From Sipunculus nudus (Eukaryota; Annelida; Sipuncula; Golfingiida; Sipunculidae), in NCBI GenBank assembly GCA_026874595.1, contig CM049313.1, forward strand, positions 59,353,159 through 59,417,158: a stretch of 64,000 bases of DNA. The letters are read 5' to 3'. The notes under the pieces were generated by a model. The model did not search any database. It was given only the letters and a program-made list of their open reading frames with translations, and was not told the origin of the DNA. A program made the position numbers and the translations under genes. How positions within the stretch are numbered: position 1 is the stretch's first letter; every line of letters starts with the position of its first letter. Positions 3,641 through 62,757 of the stretch are shown piece after piece.

Positions 3641-3861
3641 CATATCACAGCCCTTTCTAAAAAAATGGTAAATTCCTCAGGATTTATTGGGAAATATGAG
3701 AAATGAACCCCCTTAGGACACACTTTGCATGGTTCTTGATAGTTCAAGACCACAATGTTCATTTCTGAGGTTGGTCACAGAGGAGTTGTGTGACAGTGGT
3801 TGATCGCCTCCACTGTCAGTTATGATGTAGATAATTTGAAAATAACATCAACTGAATTGTA

Positions 3862-4612
3862 AAATGTAGCATGTGGCATTAAGAGCCTGCAGAAACTGCT
3901 GAGGCCAACTTTGTGAAATGTAGCATGTGGCATTTAGAGCCTGCAGAAACTGCTGAGGCCAACTTTGTGAAATGTAGCATGTGGTATTTAGAGCCTGCAG
4001 AAACTGCTGAGGCCAACTTTGTGAAATGTAGCATGTGGCATTTAGAGCCTGCAGAAACTGCTGAGGCCAACTTTGTGAAATGTAGCATGTGACATTTAGA
4101 GCCTGCAGAAACTGCTGAGGCCAACTTTGTGAAATGTAGCATGTGGCATTTAGAGCCTGCAGAAACTGCTGAGGCCAACTTTGTGAAATGTAGCATGTGG
4201 CATTAAGAGCCTGCAGAAACTGCTGAGGCCAACTTTGTGAAATGTAGCATGTGGCATTTAGAGCCTGCAGAAACTGCTGAGGCCAACTTTGTGGAATGTA
4301 GCATGTGGCATTTAGAGCCTGCAGAAACTGCTGAGGCCAACTTTGTGAAATGTAGCATGTGGCATTTAGAGCCTGCAAAAACTGCTGAGGCCAACTTTGT
4401 GAAATGTAGCATGTGGCATTTAGAGCCTGCAGAAACTGCTGAGGCCAACTTTGTGAAATGTAGCATGTGGCATTTAGAGCCTGCAGAAACTGCTGAGGCC
4501 AACTTTGTGAAATGTAGCATGTGGCATTTAGAGCCTGCAGGAACTGCTGAGGCCACCTTTGTGAAATGTAGCATGTGGTATTTAGAGCCTGCAGAAACCG
4601 CTGAGGCCAACT
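3862..4612. repeat. 54-bp satellite, about 14 copies
   Basis: The unit starts AAATGTAGCATGTGGCATTT and continues AGAGCCTGCAGAAACTGCTG; copies are nearly identical, differing by single bases. Since 54 is a multiple of three, long ORFs are open on both strands (for example the full array on the minus strand). They have no start context, splice signals or known domain and are repeat artefacts. Confidence 0.95.
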
Positions 4613-7600
4613 TATATACTTATATACTAGTAAAATGTATGCTTCCAGTTGCAACCACTTTTGTTTGTAATAGCTTGTAGTATTGTACAGTATATCTGTT
4701 AACACATACATGCTGCATTTGAACTATAAATTATATCATTTATTATATTATTTTTAAAAACAATGATTATAACCTATTCAAGCAGTAACCAGTGAAAAGT
4801 ATATTTATGATAGAAGACTTGAAGTCTTGCTGTGGTAAAATTGACTTAACAGGTTCCAGGAAATAAAAATTCTTAGACAGCAAATGACATGCCGGTAAAT
4901 CCTTCAGAAAGTATTACTGATAAGGACATCTTTTTTTATGAATGTGTATATTGTAACGAGAAGAACTGATATTTATGAGTTGATTAATTTAAACCATTGT
5001 TCTTTGGACAATAGTTATGAAGATAAATGATCAATGAATATATTCACAGGTCGAGTACATTTTTCTGCTACCTCTGCTTAAAAGCAAACTCCCATCATAA
5101 AGTCACTTACAGGGGCTGCCTGTGGAGAATACTAAAGACTTAAATCTGTACAAGGGGTGAGAGGGTGATAAGAAGCCCAGTAGTACTCGAAGAACAGCGT
5201 TATGGCCAGGCATTGGTAACTTTTCTATCTCTGGTAGATAAGAAATCCCATTGTATGCAGCAGAGCGACAGCCCTGGGGGAATTGTGTATGACTTGAATA
5301 GATGATACAGTGCTTGGCATGCTCTGTGGCTGGTTTTTGGAAAAAAGGTTTGGATGGTGCAGTTTTATTTACATAACATTAGGCCCCACTGGATGCAACA
5401 GTCACAAGAAGGAGAGTGGATTTTAAACTGAGCTGACCTGCATTTTAACTAAGCTATAGCTACATACCAGTAGATTTCAAGCTGAGCTGATATATTTTCT
5501 GTGGTAAAATTGCACCAAGTCATCTAAAGCTCAGCTTACTGGATCTGATAAGCTTGAGCTATATACACTATACACTGGCTATATACAGGATCATGAGCTG
5601 TGTTGACCTGTCTGTATAAGCTATAAATATAATTCCATAAATATGCTAGTTAGAACTGCTTACTCAAACTTCATTGTTAAGTTTTGTCTTTATGCAGATT
5701 CTGACAGAAAAAATCAGCTTAAAAATAAACTGTGGCTTCATTCTCTCAGAGACCTAATCAGATTTGACCTGTTTATAAGCTGAAGTTATGCCCCAAAAAA
5801 TTTTCACTGTTTTATTCTTTTATTCGACACATATCAAGTAAATATATTCTTTGTACCTTTAATAAAAATAAGCCAAAGAGACTATCAGATGATGTGGTGC
5901 ACATGTTGTCAGTTTTGGTAAAATATCCATGTGCTGATGATGTATGGGGTCCATGAAAATTGCCACTGATCACAATCCAAACATGACCAATGACTACATC
6001 TGGCCACATCAGATGAGGCAGAGTTTTGCAGATGACTAAAGACGGCTTCTCATGCTCTTCCCAGCAAGAATAATACATTGACGGTACAAGTTAGGATTGT
6101 GATAGTTCATTTCCCCTTTCAGAGTGTCCATGATGTACATGGTCTTAGTAATCATTAGTGCAAGCATACCCATGAGTGTAATTTACCTGAAACATGGAAC
6201 TGGAGCTGGCTCATCCAAAATTCTCAAGTTGTTAGATTTTTCAAGGCCGAAATAGTGACCTTTTTAACTTGACTTGTACAGATTTCCCCAGGGTTTCATT
6301 GTAATGCTGCGGCATCCCAGTTTCTCCTTCAGTTTTTCTGTGTTTAATTAATATCCACCCCCATGGGTACATAATGACAGACCTGTTATTTTCACCCATA
6401 TCTTGTTCTTTTGGTCTGTCAGAGGGTTTCTTGGTTACTGGTCTGTGAATTGAATTAAGCAGTATTTCATAGAAAGCCACACCTGCCTGGCAGTGACAGT
6501 TTGTTAGATTGTTAAATTCTTGAATTAACATGATCTTGAAATGAATGAATTTTTGCCAGTTATCATGTTAAAATGAATAGCCACTGATTGTTCCATCTAC
6601 CAAAATATCTTTTGTGCTGTGATGGTGGTTCAGATAAGTTAGTTTATTACATAAGTTGATACATGTATATATATTATTTATGATTGAAATGATTTTTGTG
6701 TATAGAAGTCAGTGCTTAACATTTGTTTGTTTTAAGAAATTTGAACCATGAACTGTAGTTTGCACTGAGTATTAAATTAGGACGAAGTCAGTCAAATGAC
6801 AATTGATGATAGGTTACCATGAAACAATCTGGATTTCAAGGTTTCTATGTGAAAAGATGGCAGTTATAAAGCATAATAGTAACAGGCTTCTGTGATCTCA
6901 AAGCCTCGAGGTGATGAGTTAGACTCTCGGATGAGGACAGTGACATTGTTCACATTCGTCAGTACCAAGGGTGAGTGCTCAGGGAAGGCTGTGCCTGACA
7001 GCTGTGTAACACTCACAAAAGAGTGCTTATTTGGAGGGTACCTCAATGTTATGACCTGGCTATGAGGGTTATATTACACAAACATGATATACATTGGGCC
7101 TGTGTGACAGTGATCCTGTGCTGCCACTTGTTACCTGGTCCTAAATTGAAATGGATCTCTGCATATACATCCATGTATATACTTCGGATAAGCATCAAAT
7201 AAGATCTAGACAAAAAAAAGCACCATAAGGTAAAAAAAAATTAAAGGTAGGTTTCACTGGCACCGCGAATGTCAATTTTAACCCCCCAAATCAAAATTTT
7301 TATTTTGATTTTCAATAAACACCTATTTTGAGTTCCAGCCGCTCATACACTTCTTGCAAGAATACAAATAATACAATTTTGATCAGATTTCCTTTGTTAT
7401 GTAGTGCTTTTACCTGTTTAGCAAAACAATTCTGTTGTTATCAAGTTTTTCCCTGATCATATGGCATTTAAAAAAAAATTCCCCTGGCCTACTGATACCT
7501 GAAAAAAGTGCCTGGGAGCCCAACCTTTTTTTTAGGCCTTAAGCAGTTATTAATTTAAGGAAAAATCTACTCTGTCAGATAAAACTTCAACTGGTAGGGT

Positions 7601-19641: not shown

Positions 19642-19733
19642 AACAAATTCAGACTCAGCTCTACACACGAGTGCCATGACACAACAGGCAGATCCAAATC
19701 AGAGTCCAAACACACCGCCTACCCATCGTAGGG
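19642..19733 (+). CDS. CRTC: CRTC exon with SIK/14-3-3 phosphosite
   Basis: The acceptor is TTTTTGTTGCAG and the donor is GG|GTAATT. The first base completes an Arg codon begun in an exon upstream of the window, and one base (G) is carried over at the end. The translation starts (R)TNSDSALHTSAMTQQ and ends PNTPPTHRR. The RTNSDSALH core is the family's best-known regulatory site (Ser171 in mammalian CRTC2), phosphorylated by SIK kinases and bound by 14-3-3; the second Ser of NSDS is also kept. The rest is Pro/Thr-rich and poorly conserved, as usual for this segment. The exon lies 4.3 kb beyond the nearest upstream mobile element and 290 bp before the TA-flanked element at 20021. Confidence 0.93.
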
Positions 19734-35512: not shown

Positions 35513-35556
35513 CAGCTCTCAAGCAGACCCAAGTCATGTGAGGTGCCAGGAATCAA
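35513..35556 (+). CDS. CRTC: CRTC microexon (RPKSCEVPGIN)
   Basis: This 44-bp exon encodes QLSSRPKSCEVPGI plus two bases of Asn (AA|T across the junction). RPKSCEVPGIN is one of the most conserved blocks in the CRTC family, so the call is secure. The donor is AA|GTAAGT. The acceptor is a tandem NAGNAG (TTTCAGCAG), so splicing could include or drop the first Gln codon without changing frame. A complete Helitron begins only 41 bp after the donor, at 35598, so the start of the downstream intron is almost entirely transposon. Confidence 0.95.
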
Positions 35557-38782: not shown

Positions 38783-39095
38783 TATTTATCCCTCACCTGA
38801 GCAGGACTCGGGGATGCATATACCCATTTCCAACAACACAGGCTCATTGCCGGATCTCTCAAGCTTACACTTCCCCCCTCCTCTTTCACAACCGCTGGAC
38901 ACAGACGATCAGAACTACCCACCAGGGGGCAGCCCTCTCAGCTTGTCACCCACCAGTACCCCCGGTCACATCGGAGCTGTGCGCACTTCCCAACAAACAA
39001 GTCCATCCCTACGGCGTAGACATCCTCATGGTGGCCCAAGCCCCCTTGTAATACATGGCAGCCCCACACAGATGCGACACAATATCCCACAACAG
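38783..39095 (+). CDS. CRTC: CRTC exon (TGSLPDL; repeat-derived 3' end)
   Basis: The acceptor is GTTTTTTGCAG and the donor is CAG|GTAAGA. The exon begins NIYPSPEQDSGMHIPI, then NNTGSLPDLSSLHFPPPLSQ, then PLD, the family's N-T-G-S-L-P-D-L and HFPPPL.PLD block; in mammalian CRTC2 this is where the MARK2 site (Ser275) is reported. GGSPLSLSP and SPSLRRRHPHGG follow, and the Arg-rich stretch may help nuclear import (inference). The last 49 bp, encoding VIHGSPTQMRHNIPQQ, are the first unit of a 66-bp tandem array that continues about 1.6 kb into the intron with copies of the donor site. The end chosen is the first donor, because reading on meets a TGA at 39135-39137. Confidence 0.93.
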
Positions 39096-40720
39096 GTAAG
39101 ACACCATTTATCTGTAATACATGGCAGCCCACATTGATGTGACACAATATCCCTCAACAGGTAAGACACCATTTATCTGTTATACATGGCAGCCCCACAC
39201 AGATGCGACACAATATCCCACAACAGATAAGACACCATTTATCTGTAATACATGGCAGCCCCTCACAGATGCCACACAATATCCCACAACAGGTAAGAAA
39301 CCACTTATCTGTAATACATGGCAGCCCCACACAGTTGCGACACAATATCCCACAACAGGTAAGACACCGTTTATCTGAAATACATGGCAGCCCCACACAG
39401 ATGCGACACATCCCACAACAGGTAAGACACCATTTATCTGTAATACATGGCAGCCCCACACAGGTGCGACACAATATGCGACAACAGGTAAGACACCATT
39501 TATCTGTAATACATGGCAGCCCCTCACAGATGCGACACAATATCCCACAACAGGTAAGACACCACTTATCTGTAATACATGGCAGCCCCACACAGATGCC
39601 AGACAATATCCAACAACAGGTAAGACACCATTTATCTGTAATACATGGCAGCCCCACACAGATGCGACACAATATCCCACAATAGGTAAGACACCATTTA
39701 TCTGAAATACATGGCAGCCCCACACAGATGCGACACAATATCCCACAACAGGTAAGACACCGTTTATCTGTAATACATGACAGCCCCACACAGATGCGAC
39801 ACATCCCACAACAGGTAAGACACCATTTATCTGTAATACATGGCAGCCCCACACAGATGCGACACAATATCCCATAACAGGTAAGACACCATTTATCCCA
39901 AATACATGGCAGCCCACATTGATGACACAATATCCCTCAACAGGTTAGATGCCACCATCTATCTGTAATACGTAGCAGCCAATATACATGACACAATATT
40001 ACACAACAGGGAAGATGTCCTCTACCCAATATACATAGCAGTGTTCATTGATAATATAATATCCTACAAGAGGTAAGATGGTATCTAACTGCATTACATG
40101 GCAGTGTACATTGATGACACATTGTTCTGCAACAGGTAAGATGGTATCTACCTGCATTACATGGCAGTGTACATTGATGACACATTACCCTGCAACATGT
40201 AAGATGCCATTTACCTGCATTAAATGGTAGCATACACTTATGACAAAATAATGTACCACAGAGAAGAAGGTATCTACCTGCATTATATGACCGTGTACAT
40301 CGATGACACAATATCCTAAAATAGGTAACATGACATCTTTCTGTAATACCTGGCAGCCCTGCACAAATGTGACAGGGTTCAAAAATAGGTAAGGCCTAAT
40401 CTGTCTGTAATATATGGCAACTTACATTCATGACACAATAAATGAAAACAGGTAAGAAACCCTCTACACAATATACATGGCACCCTACATTGATGAACTA
40501 ATATCCCACACCAGCTGAACAGGTAAAATGCGATATATTCTGTATTACATGGCAGCCCCACACCAATTAGATAGAAGCCATAATATTGTAATACATGCAA
40601 GCCTACATTGATGAAGTGATATCCTACAACAGGTAAGATGCCATCTCTCTGTAATACCTGGTACCTCCACACAAATATGACAGTATTCAACAAAGGTGAG
40701 GCATATCTACCTTTAATTCA
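39047..40720 (+). repeat. 66-bp array of exon end plus splice donor
   Basis: Each unit is the last 49 bp of the 38783-39095 exon followed by GTAAGACACCATTTATC. Units repeat about 22-25 times. The first about 12 (to about 39900) are nearly identical; those beyond 39950 are progressively diverged. Most copies keep a good CAG|GTAAG donor; the third has ATAAGA. The unit is 22 codons, so long minus-strand ORFs are open across it; these are artefacts. Confidence 0.95.
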
Positions 40721-41895
40721 AATCAGGCTTTACATGTGACACTATTCCACATCAGTTAAGGCCTGGTTTTCTTTAATAAATGGTAGCCCTACATTGTTAA
40801 GGACTTCTTGCAACCCCACATGGAGAGCTACATGCTCCAAAATAGGTCTACTTATATTAAATGGGAGGACACACTCTCCACAACATATGGCAGCCCCGAA
40901 TAATATAACTACATGATAGCCTCATTATAAAATAACCACACACTTCTTGAAAGACATTGAAGCCACTGTAGACATAAAACTGCACAATATGGTAAATTAT
41001 TAAAAGTCCTCATAATAACAATCATCGTTACACCCCTATCTCATCCACTGTTAATTATTTTTACATTCACATTCAGTGATATTCCTTAAGTAAGACATGA
41101 TATCAATAGACACTTAAACAGTTGGAAATTTATGCCTGAAACTTTGAAGAAGACGATAAAAGTCCATAGAAAAATTGTTTGAAATCTCCGATTTTCAAGA
41201 CCATATTTTTGGGGACACAAATTTCTGATCAGTTCAGTGAGACTGTGTAACAGGATATAACAGGCTTTGAATCAGATAAGGTTAACAGAATGAAAGGTTT
41301 GCTGGGATTCTTCAGTTTTCAGGTAGGTGGTATTTACTGTAGTAAGAAAGAAAAATGGTGCAATATTACCACAGTTGAAACATACAGCACACCAGTATTT
41401 ATTGCTTTCGTTTATACATGTAGTGTGGAATGCATTTTCTTTTTTACATCCTATATTAGTATTAATGTAATGTAACTAGTGCAGCACAAATTCAGCTTCA
41501 ACACAGGCACTCTTTATATATATATATATATATATACTAACCTTTGTTTATTGTTTAAATGTATGATTTGGTTACATATTGCTGTTGCAACTTTCTGAAT
41601 ACGCCAGTGCTTTGGTGTTTTTTGTATTTGAATTGTACTTTGTGCATTCCCAGTGCTGGTGGTCGATATACTTGGTTTGATATTTTAGCAAGTGTTTATT
41701 TATTTTGATGTACATTATTTATTGTATTGTTTTGTGCCTACATGTGGCTGCTTTGCCACTTATCTATTTGTCTGTTAAACATGTAGAGGTCAATAATCAT
41801 TTTGGATGGTGCCTATAGCATCATGTTATTTGTAGACAAAGGCTCAACACACCAAATCTTATCACTCATCTACATTTACACCTAAATTATTGTTA

Positions 41896-42602: not shown

Positions 42603-43052
42603 GCAGGCTCACTAGATGGCGCTAGGGTGGATCAAAGACTACATGTACAGGGCCCCTACCATCCTTACAAGCCAGCGTCCCTGCACCAACAAGCAGTGTT
42701 CAATCAGGCTCAGAATCGACAGACTGTTCACAACAGGAACTCTTTATCGCCCCTTGGGGGCGCTGTGCCCCCAAATCACATGCGACTACCTGGGGCCAGT
42801 CCTACTTCAGTGTTAACAATTCCAGTATCCCATTCACAATACAGTCCCAACAAATCCCCGGACTACTTAGAGAACATGGTGATATCAATTCCAAATTCTA
42901 GTATTACTCTGACTCTAACAGACACTAATAATCAGGTGACAGTGCCGGTGGTGGAGAACGGAGTCTCAGTGAAACCAACACACTCTATAGGCAACTCTCA
43001 TCCCCCTTGCCAGTCTCATAACGGACCAACGTTACATGGTGATAAGTCATCG
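42603..43052 (+). CDS. CRTC: CRTC large middle exon
   Basis: The acceptor is GATGTTTGTAG and the donor is TCG|GTGAGT; 150 codons, phase 0 at both ends. It begins AGSLDGARVDQRLHVQGPYH and includes NRNSLSPLGGAVPPNHMRLP, an SQYSPNKSPDY stretch and a Thr/Val-rich segment (TLTLTDTNNQVTVPVVENG). This is the low-complexity regulatory/splicing region of CRTCs, rich in Ser, Pro, Gln and Asn; it aligns poorly between phyla, so identity comes mainly from frame and position. The open frame continues past the donor to a TAA at 43182-43184, and a second strong donor (GTAAGT at 43105) lies inside that extension. Confidence 0.88.
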
Positions 43053-46827: not shown

Positions 46828-46965
46828 TTAACCATTGTGACCCAGTGTTTTTGAATGTTTTTTTTTTTTGTAGGGTTCCAGTATTAACTAATTATTATGA
46901 ATAATTTTAGGTTTTGCAGGGATCCAATATTACAAAATGATTATGAATGTTTCTGTGTTTTTTAG
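46828..46965 (+). repeat. 46-bp tandem copies of the exon's acceptor
   Basis: Sequences starting at 46874 (GGTTCCAGTATTAAC) and 46920 (GGATCCAATATTAC) copy the start of the true exon at 46966 (GGTTCCAGTATGACC). All are spaced exactly 46 bp and each is preceded by a T-rich tract and AG. A fourth, weaker copy with TGACCCAGT begins about 46828. Only the last copy continues into an open frame. Confidence 0.85.
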
Positions 46966-47178
46966 GGTTCCAGTATGACCCAGTATCGCAACAACACAAC
47001 AGATAATTCGTGCCAGTCCCCTACGTCACCTTTGTCTCAGCCCTCCTATTCTCCATCGCAGTCTCCAGGTCTCCCACCTAGCACAGTCAGCAGCTCCCCC
47101 TTCACAGACCCCTACTGGCAGCAACACTCACAGCAACAAACCACGGCACTACAGCACCAGTTTGAACAATTCAGTATG
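46966..47178 (+). CDS. CRTC: CRTC exon (QSPTSPLSQ...HQFEQFSM)
   Basis: The acceptor is GTTTTTTAG and the donor is ATG|GTAGGT; 71 codons, phase 0 at both ends. It reads GSSMTQYRNNTTDNSCQSPT, then SPLSQPSYSPSQSPG and, at the end, TTALQHQFEQFSM. Vertebrate CRTCs have matching NQSPTSP and HQLEQFNM segments, and the exon end falls at the same FxM residue. The middle is Ser/Pro- and Gln-rich, as in the family. Both borders are repeat-bearing: the acceptor is the last of at least three 46-bp tandem copies, and the donor begins an array of near-identical CAGTATG|GTAGGTC units. Confidence 0.93.
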
Positions 47179-47618
47179 GTAGGTCAATGTTTTAAATTAA
47201 TCAGTATGGTATGTCAAATTAAATCAGTATGGTAGGTCAACTCATGTAATAAATCAGTATGGTAGGTCATCTTAAATCAGTATGGTAGGTCAACTCCTGT
47301 AATAAGTCAGTATGGTAGGTCAACTTAATCAGTATGGTAGGTCATCTCCTGTAATAAGTCAGTATGGAAGGTCAACTAAAATCAGTATGGTAGGTCAACT
47401 CTTGTAATAAATCAGTAAACTTAAATCAGTATGGTAGGTCAACTTAAATCAGTATGGTAGGTCAACTCCTGTAATAAGTCAGTATGGTAGGTCAACTAAA
47501 ATCAGTATGGGAGGTCAACTCCTGTAATAAATCAGTATGGTAGGTCAACTTAAATCAGTATGGTAGGTCAACTCCTGTAATAAGTCAGTATGGTAGGTCA
47601 ACTTAAATCAGTATGGGA
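47169..47618 (+). repeat. Array of exon-end/donor units (23 and 30 bp)
   Basis: The exon's last bases and donor, CAGTATG|GTAGGTCAA, are repeated about 19 times with alternating spacers (CTTAAAT or CTCCTGTAATAA). A few copies have GGGAGGT or GGAAGGT. The array continues, more diverged, after the inserted element, to about 48400. Confidence 0.95.
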
Positions 47619-47627
47619 GGTCAACTC

Positions 47628-48167
47628 TAGACTGGTACCCTGCTCTATTATGGCCCTCAGCCAAGCATAGAGACAGGCGTACAACGCCATCTTAGGTACT
47701 CCCAGTTGCAACTCCTAACTTACCTGTAGACTGGTTCCAACTCCAGTATGCACGCTCATACCGGTTGTCATGGACGTTCACGCGATCCTGGTTAATTGTT
47801 CTTGAAGATTTCCTATAAAATAACTTTCTTTAGTTATATCTAGTTTTCAAATATTTAAGAATAAGTTGTTGCACAAAAATTGAATGATGGATGTATAGAT
47901 AATACGATATATTGAATCTTTGATATTCCACTGTGTGAAGCAGTGATTTATTACTAATAGCTGTTAATCTAATCGTTAATGTCACACGTAATGTACAGCC
48001 AACTTTTAGGAACTTCTCTGATCATACAAAATGCTTATTTTTATCATATATATAATACATACTGGAGTTGGAACCAGTCTGCCGGGAGTACATAAGATGG
48101 CGTTGTACGCCCGTCTCTATGATTGGCCTAGAGCAGCGGTGCCATAATAGAGCGGGGTACCAGTCTA
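47628..48167 (+). mobile_element. MITE with long TIRs and 9-bp target duplication
   Basis: The terminal sequences TAGACTGGTACCC...GCTCTATTATGGC and their reverse complement extend about 110 bp inward (including GCGTACAACGCCATCTTA and GACTGGTTCCAACTCCAGTA). GGTCAACTC flanks both ends (47619-47627 and 48168-48176). At 540 bp with no ORF, it looks like a MITE; a 9-bp duplication would suit a Mutator-like source. Because the target is a tandem array, the flanking match could be partly fortuitous. Confidence 0.8.
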
Positions 48168-48420
48168 GGTCAACTCCTGTAATAAATCATGATGGCAGGT
48201 CAACTTATTTAATTAATTCAAATGGTAGGTCAGCATATTTATAAAACAGTATGGTTGGTCAACTTAATTAAATCAATATGGTAGGTCAACTTCATTGTAT
48301 AAGTATTATTGTTCATCTTATTTAACCAGTATGATAAGCTGGTTCCTGTAATAAATCAGTTTGGTTGGTCAGCAATGTTAATTAATCAGTTGGGTTGGTC
48401 TGCTCGGTAAAAAAAATAAG
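48168..48420 (+). repeat. Diverged continuation of the donor array
   Basis: About ten degenerate copies of ATCAGTATGGTAGGTCAAC follow the MITE (for example CAATATGGTAGGTCAAC and CAGTTTGGTTGGTCAG). They are older than the units before the insertion. Confidence 0.75.
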
Positions 48421-48572: not shown

Positions 48573-48918
48573 CTCCAGGACAATCAGCCCAGTCAGTCCA
48601 GCACTAACGGCAGCGTGAACCTTCCTCTGTATGGGGGTCAGATGAACCTACAGATGTCTCAGGCCATGGTCGCGGGCCTCTCTGGCAGCCAGGACTTTGC
48701 TCAGCCACAACAGACCCAGCAACAGGCTGGGCGCTACTACCAGCAACAGTCCACTCCCCAGCAGCAGAGCCCTCAGCAGGGCTCACCCCAGCCACCCTCC
48801 CCACAAGCCCAAGGCTCCCCACACCAGGTGGCACCACCCACATCCAGCACAGCTGAGCAGACTCACCAGACGCTAACCCCACAAAACAGCAACCAGATTC
48901 CAGATATAATATTAACAG
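48573..48918 (+). CDS. CRTC: CRTC Gln-rich exon ending in IPDIILT
   Basis: The acceptor is TACTTTTTATAG and the donor is ACAG|GTCAGC, with one base (G) carried over. It starts LQDNQPSQSSTNGSVNLPLY, then GGQMNLQMSQAMVAGLSGSQ, matching the SQAAMMGLTGS region of vertebrate CRTCs. A Gln/Pro/Ser tract follows, and it ends NSNQIPDIILT, matching the family's I-P-N/D-I-I-L-T-G motif; this motif resembles a PxIxIT calcineurin-docking sequence, a role suggested for CRTCs (stated from memory). The Gln-rich tract is typical of the transactivation region. An element of the head/tail class begins 100 bp after the donor. Confidence 0.95.
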
Positions 48919-60636: not shown

Positions 60637-61392
60637 TCTTGTGTGTACTTGTCATCATTCAGTGTATACTTGTCATCATTCAGTGTGTACTTGTCATCAT
60701 TCAGTATGTACTCATCATCATTCAGTGTATACTTGTCATCATTCAGTGTGTACTTGTCATCATTAAGTGTGTACTTGTCATCAGTCAGTGTGTACTCATC
60801 ATCATTCTGTGTGTACTTGTCATCATTGTGTGCACTTGTCATCATTCAGTATGTACTTTTCAGATAGTGTGTACTAATCATCAGTCAGGGTATACTTGTC
60901 ATCATTCAGTTGGTACTCATCATTCAGTGTGTATTCATCATCATTCAGTGTGTACTTGTCATCAGTCAGTGTGTACCATTCATCAGCCAGAATGAACTTG
61001 TCATCATTCAGTGTGTACTGGTAATCATTAAGTATGTATTCTTCATCAGTAAGTGTGAACTTGTCATCATTCAGTGTGTACTTGTCATCATTCAGCGTGT
61101 ACTTGTCATCATTCAGTGTGTACTTGTCATCATTCAGCGTGTAATTGTCATCATTCAGTGTGTACTTTTCATCAGTCAGTGTGTACTTGTCATCAGTCAG
61201 TGTGTTCTTGTCATCATTCAGTGTGTATTTGTCATCAGTCAGTGTGTACTCATCATCATTAAGTGTGTACTCATCATCATTCTGTGTGTACTTGTCATCA
61301 TTGTGTGTACTTGTCATCATTCAGTATGTACTTTTCATCAGTCAGTGTGTACTAATCAATAGTCAGGGTATACTTGTCATCATTCAGTTAGA
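60637..61392 (+). repeat. 21-bp minisatellite, block 1
   Basis: The unit is TACTTGTCATCATTCAGTGT plus G, about 36 copies, with point variants (ATCAGTCAG, CTCATCATC). Because 21 is a multiple of three, ORFs are open in many frames (VYLSSFS, CTCHHSV, VLVIIQC; NDDKYTL on the minus strand). These are repeat artefacts. Confidence 0.95.
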
Positions 61393-61744
61393 CCAGCAAC
61401 AGGTCGAGGAATAATTTTTTTCTCATTTTTTTATCATGTTTATAAATCTTCAGTGATCATTTTATAATTCATGTACTGACTCCTACTGTGAGGTGCAAAT
61501 AGTTTAGTTTCTTTCTCCAGGGGGCCCCACTATCACTTCAGGGGAGAGAATACACAAGAATCCTCTATAATTGAGCACACAGACGCCACCTGTAGTTATA
61601 ATTGTGTATTACTGGAACTGGTCATGGCAGCAACAGGGCAGCTGAACAGAGGGTCAACAGAGTACCAGAATAGGGGTTGCTTTTACTTGGGGTATATTTA
61701 TGTAAAATCAGAAATAGACAAAATTATAGGGACCTATGCAGGTC
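61393..61744. other. Unique island between minisatellite blocks
   Basis: Non-repetitive sequence with a good acceptor, TTTCTTTCTCCAG, at 61508-61520 and a short phase-compatible open frame ending in TAA at 61568-61570. It may be an alternative terminal exon or merely spacer. Confidence 0.4.
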
Positions 61745-62525
61745 TACATTCAGTGGGTACTCATCATCATTCAGTGTGTATTCATCATCATTCAGTGTGT
61801 ATTTGTCATCAGTCAGTGTGTACTCATCATTAGCCAGAATGAACTTGTCATCATTCAGTGTGTACTTGTCATCATCAAGTATGTACCCATCATCAGTCAG
61901 TGTGTACTCATCATCAGTCAGTGTGTACTTGTCATCATTCAATGTGTACTTGTCATCATTCAGTGTGTTCTTGTCATCATTCAGTGTGTTCTTGTCATTA
62001 TTCAGTGTGTACTTGTCATCATTCAGTGTGTACTTGTCATCATTAAGTGTGTTTTCATCATCATTCTGTGTGTACTTGTCATAATTTAGTGAGTATTCAT
62101 CATCAGTCAGTGTGTACTTGTCATCATTCAGTATGTGCTTGTCATCAGTCAGTGTGTACTTGTCATCATTCAGTGTGTACTTGTCATCAGTCAGTGTGTA
62201 TTCATCATCATTCAATGTGTACTTGTCATCAGTGAGTGTGTATTCATCATCATTCAGTGTGTACTTGTCATCATTCAGTGTGTACTTGTCATCATGCAGT
62301 GTATACTTATCATCATTCTGTGTGTACTCATCATCAATCATCGTGTACTTGTCATCATTCAGTGTGTACTTGCCATCATTCAGTGTGTACTCCTCATCAG
62401 TCAGGGTATACTAGTCATCATTCAGTGTGTACTGGCCATCATTCAGTATGTACTTGTCATCATTCAGTGTGTACTGGCCATCATTCGGTATGTACTTTTC
62501 ATCAATCTGTATGTACTCATCATCT
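61745..62525 (+). repeat. 21-bp minisatellite, block 2, abutting the last exon
   Basis: The same 21-bp unit as block 1, about 37 copies, reaches to within about 15 bp of the last exon. One frame is open from 62236 through the acceptor into the last CRTC exon. Variants with CTGGCCATCATTC cluster at the 3' end. Confidence 0.95.
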
Positions 62526-62539
62526 TTTTTTCCTTCCAG

Positions 62540-62757
62540 GAGCAGATGACAGTATACAGAGACAAGACTTTGCAAGAGAATTAGGGAATGCAATGGCCGG
62601 CATGACAGATTCGCTGGATTCTGATTTATTTACTCCTGATGAAGCCCTTAGGGTTGGTCTGGATCCATTAGATCTGGATGGTCTCCAAATGCTAGATCCA
62701 GGCAGTTTAGTTACAGATCCGGCCACTGAAGACTCATTCCGAATGGACAGGCTCTGA
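62540..62757 (+). CDS. CRTC: CRTC last coding exon, transactivation domain
   Basis: The acceptor is TTTTCCTTCCAG. Joined to the carried-over G it reads GADDSIQRQDFARELGNAMA, GMTDSLDSDLFTPDEALR, then LDPLDLDGLQMLDPGSLVTD, ending DPATEDSFRMDRL before TGA, with TAG directly after. The vertebrate family ends in the same way (LTLDGLHML...DPATEDTFRMDRL), so this is the complete acidic C-terminal transactivation domain that contacts p300/CBP and TAF components. Upstream, a 21-bp minisatellite runs to within a few bases of the polypyrimidine tract and is in frame with this exon without a stop from 62236. Confidence 0.97.

Follow-up and report, generated by a model that had tools for sequence, protein, structure and literature searches.

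The window, the whole 64,000-nucleotide stretch of Sipunculus nudus DNA analyzed here, lies on an 80.9-Mb contig of a 1.43-Gb assembly. It contains the 3' part of a gene for a CREB-regulated transcription coactivator (CRTC). Five exons on the plus strand (38783-39095, 42603-43052, 46966-47178, 48573-48918, and 62540-62757) together form a single open frame once spliced, and the last of them includes the stop codon. A start at 48579 leaves the fourth exon equally open. The spliced product has Pfam matches to TORC_M and TORC_C, the latter at its end. The TORC_M match takes up the first 47 residues of the exon at 38783-39095 and stops 57 residues short of the exon end. Two earlier exons were found at about 19642-19732 and 35513-35555. 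Three more were found upstream of the window, at 3 kb and 93 kb, and further ones may be missing. TRF reported no array with a period above 6 within about 1 kb of these three upstream exons. The protein of the exon at 38783-39095 had no relatives in a scan of genome contig and viral contig collections, and a 139-residue stretch of it matched no PDB sequence. MRHNIPQ and short vertebrate CRTC strings had no match in paper texts.

The 3' end of the exon at 38783-39095 (IYPSPEQDSG...VIHGSPTQMRHNIPQQ) appears to have seeded a tandem array that spans the exon-intron boundary. Its 66-bp unit consists of 49 bp of exon end and 17 bp of intron, as an earlier note on this DNA had proposed. TRF reported 39047-40015 with a period of 66, 14.8 copies, and a score of 1519, with a 63-bp continuation to 40332. 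The wrap-around alignment to the exon unit gave 27 units and a 22-bp remnant (27.3 copies, 39047 to 40793). About 26 tandem copies of the exon end and its splice site therefore lie in the following intron. The count of more than 20 repeats in the earlier note holds, as does its start at 39047, but the array reaches 73 bp farther than the end given there (40720). A search of the 1.43-Gb genome with the unit returned at least 14 matches, all inside this array. The array contains two AATAAA and one ATTAAA poly(A) signals, and the rest of the intron contains 0 and 3. These counts bear on the idea, which we do not adopt, that the many U1 sites guard against premature polyadenylation. The unit has an open frame of 22 codons. 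An open stretch of 180 codons (39143-39682) runs in a frame other than that of the exon; we rejected it as a gene and regard it as a consequence of the unit's open frame. A separate 54-bp array at 3857-4613 (14 units, 97% matches) has no recognized exon alongside.

All units lie on the plus strand. Unit 1 (39047-39112) is the exon copy. It is identical to the TRF consensus and carries the donor CAG/GTAAGA at 39096 (a slash marks the splice boundary). Unit 2 (39113-39177) appears chimeric, with three marks of unit 14 on its left and the 17 bp of the exon copy on its right, and it contains an in-frame TGA at 39135-39137. Units 3 to 13 (39178-39897) form a young block with 94 to 98% identity to the exon copy. 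Unit 14 (39898-39963) is of the old type, with 80% identity. The old block (39964-40793) contains units 15 to 27, of 58 to 64 bp and 54 to 74% identity to the exon copy, and the 22-bp remnant.

Identity to the exon unit is 0.92 to 0.98 in units 2 to 13, 0.80 in unit 14, and 0.54 to 0.74 in units 15 to 27. Pooled over units 2 to 27, it falls with distance (rho -0.74). The Spearman correlation with distance is +0.47 (P 0.13) within units 2 to 13 and -0.07 (P 0.83) within units 15 to 27. Because identity does not fall with distance inside either group, the array contains two age classes and not a slope. The earlier statement that near units are alike and far ones decayed survives as two levels, but the change is a step, and unit 2, which adjoins the exon unit, has the lowest identity among the first 13. 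Growth at the exon side survives only as a recent expansion near the exon; the block of units 3 to 13 lies between unit 2 and unit 14, which does not fit an array that grew outward from the exon edge.

Unit 2 bears old-type marks. In common with unit 14 it has a TT, a T, and the loss of one base, and all three are absent from units 3 to 13. Its last 17 bases are those of the exon copy; unit 14 matches there at 15 of 20 aligned positions. The whole left half of unit 2 matches the exon copy at 44 of 49 positions and unit 14 at 43 of 48. The unit tree, in which 20 of 24 inner branches were drawn open and none of the 24 was strongly supported, placed unit 2 in the young clade, together with the exon copy (support 92/97, zero branch length). 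On the three shared marks, unit 2 looks like the recombinant product of an exchange between the exon and an old unit. A single unequal crossover that joined an old unit to the exon copy may have produced it, as may a conversion tract. We favor copying from the exon into the intron, and the reverse direction, from the intron array to the exon end, is unlikely in CRTC.

The CRTC gene contains further junction arrays, and both boundary types are represented (5' at 39047 and 47171, 3' at 46852-46976). The second donor array was retrieved by TRF and a core search at 47171-48402 on the plus strand. It contains mostly alternating 23- and 30-bp units (CAGTATG/GTAGGTCAAC) and is interrupted by an insert. 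The exon at 46966-47178 ends in ...TTCAGTATG/GTAGGTCAAT, and CAGTATGGTAGGTCAAC is repeated through the following intron. Of the 23 cores found, the 17 proximal ones keep 16 to 17 of 17 bases and the 6 distal ones keep 12 to 16. Splicing at the first decoy donor (47209) would insert 10 residues (VGQCFKLISM) and keep the frame, and the 15 later decoy donors listed lead to premature stops. The insert (47627-48168) is 542 bp long, with inverted terminal repeats and GTCAACT on both flanks. Units past the insert are more decayed, as if homogenization had been stopped by it.

The same exon has a repeated 3' splice site at 46852-46976 (plus strand, TRF). The unit is 46 bp, in 2.7 copies, and contains a T-rich tract, AG, and the first 11 bp of the exon. 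Its decoy exon starts, 46874 and 46920, both lead to a stop. A 21-bp array (...CATCATTCAG) at 60641-62524, also on the plus strand and reported by TRF, stops 16 bp short of the last exon's acceptor, and its unit does not include the exon. Arrays built from short CAG-bearing units that stop 16 to 20 bp short of a real acceptor occur here and at one kinesin locus (L084:15-414), and in both the unit excludes the exon.

Exons of two unrelated families were sampled in the same genome. There were 74 matches to the myosin head, of which 65 were examined, and 109 to kinesin, of which the best-scoring 21 were examined, for a total of 86. Arrays were sought within 100 bp of each match, and those at more distant exon edges would be missed. 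TRF arrays crossed the exon edge at 6 of the 65 exons for myosin and at none of the 21 for kinesin (6/86 overall, or 5/86 if the weakest in exon content, L065, is left out). Five are donor arrays. L044, from a myosin-like exon that ends in ...GSTNSILT/G (C7:52358784-52359041, minus strand), has about 28 copies of 36 bp with about 14 exon bases in the array. L052 has at least 20 copies of 30 bp and about 7 exon bases. L054 has 1.9 copies of 83 bp and about 50 exon bases. L064 has 3 copies of 61/35 bp and about 23 exon bases, and L065 has 2 copies of 35 bp and about 3 exon bases. The sixth, L027 (L027:1823-2299), is an acceptor array with 5.8 copies of 82 bp and about 26 exon bases, which makes it a 3' boundary case beyond CRTC. 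In L027, L054, and L064, the repeated exon part is inside the Myosin_head match (in L027 it encodes the start of MKDERNYHIFY), so these exon ends are older than their arrays.

Other candidates were rejected as spanning arrays. The array at 60641-62524 in the window and that of L084, which ends about 20 bp before an acceptor, are merely beside the junction. The array of L076 starts a few bases into the intron, and that of L085 ends a few bases before the acceptor. Those of L042, L062, and L086 are in the intron. A row of myosin-head matches on the minus strand at C2:44848559-44852248 covers overlapping profile stretches, four of them ending at 152-153. These are possibly mutually exclusive exons.

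The siting of arrays at junctions was compared with chance. In the window, arrays with a period of at least 7 make up 24.8% of bases and cover 3 of 13 junctions, where 3.2 would be expected. Their edges come within 20 bp of one junction (0.28 expected, P 0.25) and within 60 bp of two (0.78 expected, P 0.19). A second test found a spanning duplicate at 3 of 13 junctions, and the scores of the two weaker ones were reached at roughly one random position in four. Terminal repeat units make up 2.8% of 122,141 myosin bases, 1.7% of 20,986 kinesin bases, and 9.5% of the 164 kb around CRTC. They contain 3 of the 18 known CRTC junctions (1.7 expected, P 0.24) and, with two junctions assumed per match, 6 of 172 sampled myosin and kinesin junctions (4.3 expected, P 0.27). 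The pooled count is 9, against 6.0 expected (P 0.16). The test is conservative because its background includes the junction arrays. A rougher tally based on founder-unit length gave 3 against 0.48 (P 0.013, or 0.07 without the 66-bp array). We set it aside, since it depends on how arrays are counted.

These counts bear on the possibility that splice junctions are a hot spot, at which co-transcriptional splicing prompts tandem duplications. Both junction sets are slightly above expectation, and the founder-unit count points the same way. Against this stand the P values of the terminal-unit test, singly and pooled, and in the window the coverage at expectation and the edge counts. We consider a hot spot unlikely. 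The existence of the 66-bp array is plainly not due to chance, but the same is not clear for its position at a junction. Junction arrays abound in this genome because tandem repeats do. They show no sign of being avoided and no firm sign of being sought, and the lack of an excess fits random duplications that were tolerated.

The earlier note had also suggested that the array wrote the exon end. An intronic repeat with a donor would have converted or replaced the original end and added about 16 residues. The exact identity of the exon unit to the consensus of the young block is what conversion in either direction would give. The unit's open 22-codon frame would suit such an origin, and the TORC_M match stops too early for Pfam to show conservation of the end. 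However, unit 2 joins old-type marks to the intron part of the exon copy, as an exchange at the exon side would do, and the exon copy sits at zero branch length within the young clade. In the three myosin exons with their repeated part inside Myosin_head, the exon came first. The end of the second CRTC exon (EQFSM), moreover, resembles vertebrate CRTCs. We regard the suggestion as quite improbable.

The donor is repeated with the unit. Of the 27 units, 14 retain CAG/GTAAG (11 among units 1 to 13 and 3 among units 14 to 27), so the claim that most units keep it is right for the exon-side half but not overall. AGGT is present in 22 of 27 units. Counting the exon copy, the array holds CAGGTAAGA 14 times. 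The other 1.8 kb of the intron lacks it and has a single further site with a weight-matrix score above 4. The TGA in unit 2 is in frame, and all 18 later GT[AG]AG donors meet it. Counted from the start of the exon at 38783, donor 1 gives 512 residues and each of the 18 others gives 117. By reading frame, then, the gene is predicted to depend on donor 1, and on these points the earlier account of a donor ladder, of the TGA behind the second donor, and of reliance on the first stands. In the old units, the donor 8-mer ranks second in conservation among 66 windows (0.84; mean 0.67), which may hint at donor use. TACATGGC is kept nearly as well (0.82), and for this reason we do not take the donors as evidence of selection.

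The ladder could instead be a working switch that yields a truncated CRTC without TORC_C, or a decay-marked mRNA, and so tunes the CRTC dose. The 18 further donors, 13 of them with the same CAGGTAAGA as donor 1, would all give the same truncated tail, and the decoy at 47209 in the second array adds its residues in frame. The good preservation of the donor 8-mer in old units would also fit, as would the repeat-keeping transcripts reported for human boundary repeats (PMC2812944). On the other side, unrelated genes of this genome carry such arrays too, about as often as random placement would give. The amphioxus papers describe no interference of such arrays with regular splicing (PMC3087553, PMC3902484). 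We find a switch hard to credit.

An assembly artefact is extremely unlikely even though tandem arrays are difficult to assemble, because no two of the 27 units are identical and the longest exact repeat is 76 bp, which leaves no large copy-paste as from an assembler error, and because there are two age classes and similar arrays in several genes.

Our reading is that the array is very probably a minisatellite of the mirage type, copied from the exon into the intron, near-neutral, and tolerated because the exon-proximal donor is used. The old block would date from an ancient tandem duplication, into the intron, of a 66-bp stretch over the CRTC 5' splice site. Renewed duplication by exchange with the exon copy would later have produced the young block and the chimeric unit 2. 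Coding for protein and serving as the working donor would hold the exon copy constant, and the intron copies would drift nearly free. Use of the exon-proximal donor would follow from its being transcribed first and giving the shortest exon. Were splicing to slip to a later donor, the mRNA would meet one stop codon and probably be lost to nonsense-mediated decay. The array would have no function of its own. Such silence is not the rule everywhere, to judge from human repeat-keeping transcripts (PMC2812944) and from the stochastic splicing of human UBC (PMC10809524).

The wider point is how ordinary junction arrays seem in this genome. With three junctions affected in one gene and 6 of 86 sampled exons elsewhere, their recurrence suggests a by-product to be expected in repeat-rich genomes. 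They may be a way for introns to grow and a trap for gene annotation. They are also ready-made constructs for studying how the spliceosome chooses among identical sites. It is conceivable, if somewhat less than probable, that the genome runs a natural splice-site competition assay, with 2 to about 28 similar sites, in which the site giving the shortest exon must win nearly always; this would concern a few percent of sampled exon edges, and the winner would be the first donor or the last acceptor. If true, position (transcription order and distance across the exon), and not sequence, would decide site choice. A bolder suggestion is that an mRNA spliced at donor k could undergo a second splicing step that joins donor 1 to unit k at its CAG. 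This is possible because many units end in CAG/GTAAG. It would restore the exact normal junction, and the array could thus be self-correcting.

Single human cases of this kind exist. The gene for CBS contains a 31-bp VNTR, c.1444_1467+7(16_21), with 16 to 21 units (PMC2630376), and a table places it at exon 13-intron 13 (PMC1395315). From these coordinates, its unit would consist of 24 exon and 7 intron bases, with a donor in each unit. The CRTC unit is likewise an exon end plus the first intron bases; it differs in its length of 66 bp (49 + 17 bp) and in its decayed old block. PMC2630376 also describes a 68-bp duplicate of the CBS intron 7/exon 8 junction that is spliced to normal mRNA. In human duplicated genes, repeat-keeping transcripts are given for 66% of intron-modifying exon-intron boundary repeats (PMC2812944), and intron gain by tandem duplication is described in PMC4974935. 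The CRTC array shares with these cases a tandem duplication across a junction that supplies spare splice signals. It differs in that an existing intron was lengthened and no new intron is inferred.

Tandem AGGT sites can serve as both donor and acceptor, and human UBC repeats are spliced stochastically (PMC10809524). The CRTC array resembles these dual-specific arrays in its AGGT-bearing units and in a unit length that is a multiple of 3. Its repeats are intronic, whereas those of UBC are coding monomers. In the 20 bases before NAG, the T fraction is 0.15 to 0.30 in the seven units shown and 0.50 to 0.60 at seven real acceptors.

Among the matches listed from open-license PMC texts, "mirage" in the minisatellite sense was found in only two papers, both on amphioxus. 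PMC8309469, which has the word only in a reference title, is unrelated, and so, from the portion seen, is PMC12294457 as a mirage report. The part seen of PMC12783039 describes earthworm intron minisatellites, and no boundary-spanning unit was noted in it.

The closest known system is that of the amphioxus mirages, tandem repeats across exon-intron boundaries. PMC3087553 describes them at 5' and 3' boundaries, with homogenization of units, length differences between haplotypes, and apparently regular splicing, and considers them possibly a cephalochordate phenomenon. The named cases are Adh3, the globins BflGb6 and BflGb9, troponin C, and PGBD5 (PMC3087553, PMC3902484); PMC3902484 adds PGBD5 and names Adh and troponin C. 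The CRTC array shares four features with mirages: a boundary-spanning unit, AG/GT splice signals in many but not all units, occurrence at both 5' and 3' boundaries, and concerted evolution with the edge excluded. The last is seen in the homogeneous young block, the diverged old block, and the old-type character of units 2 and 14. The two BflGb6 haplotypes have 3 and 6 units and the CRTC array has 27; the CRTC case further differs in its two age classes and its three junctions in one gene.
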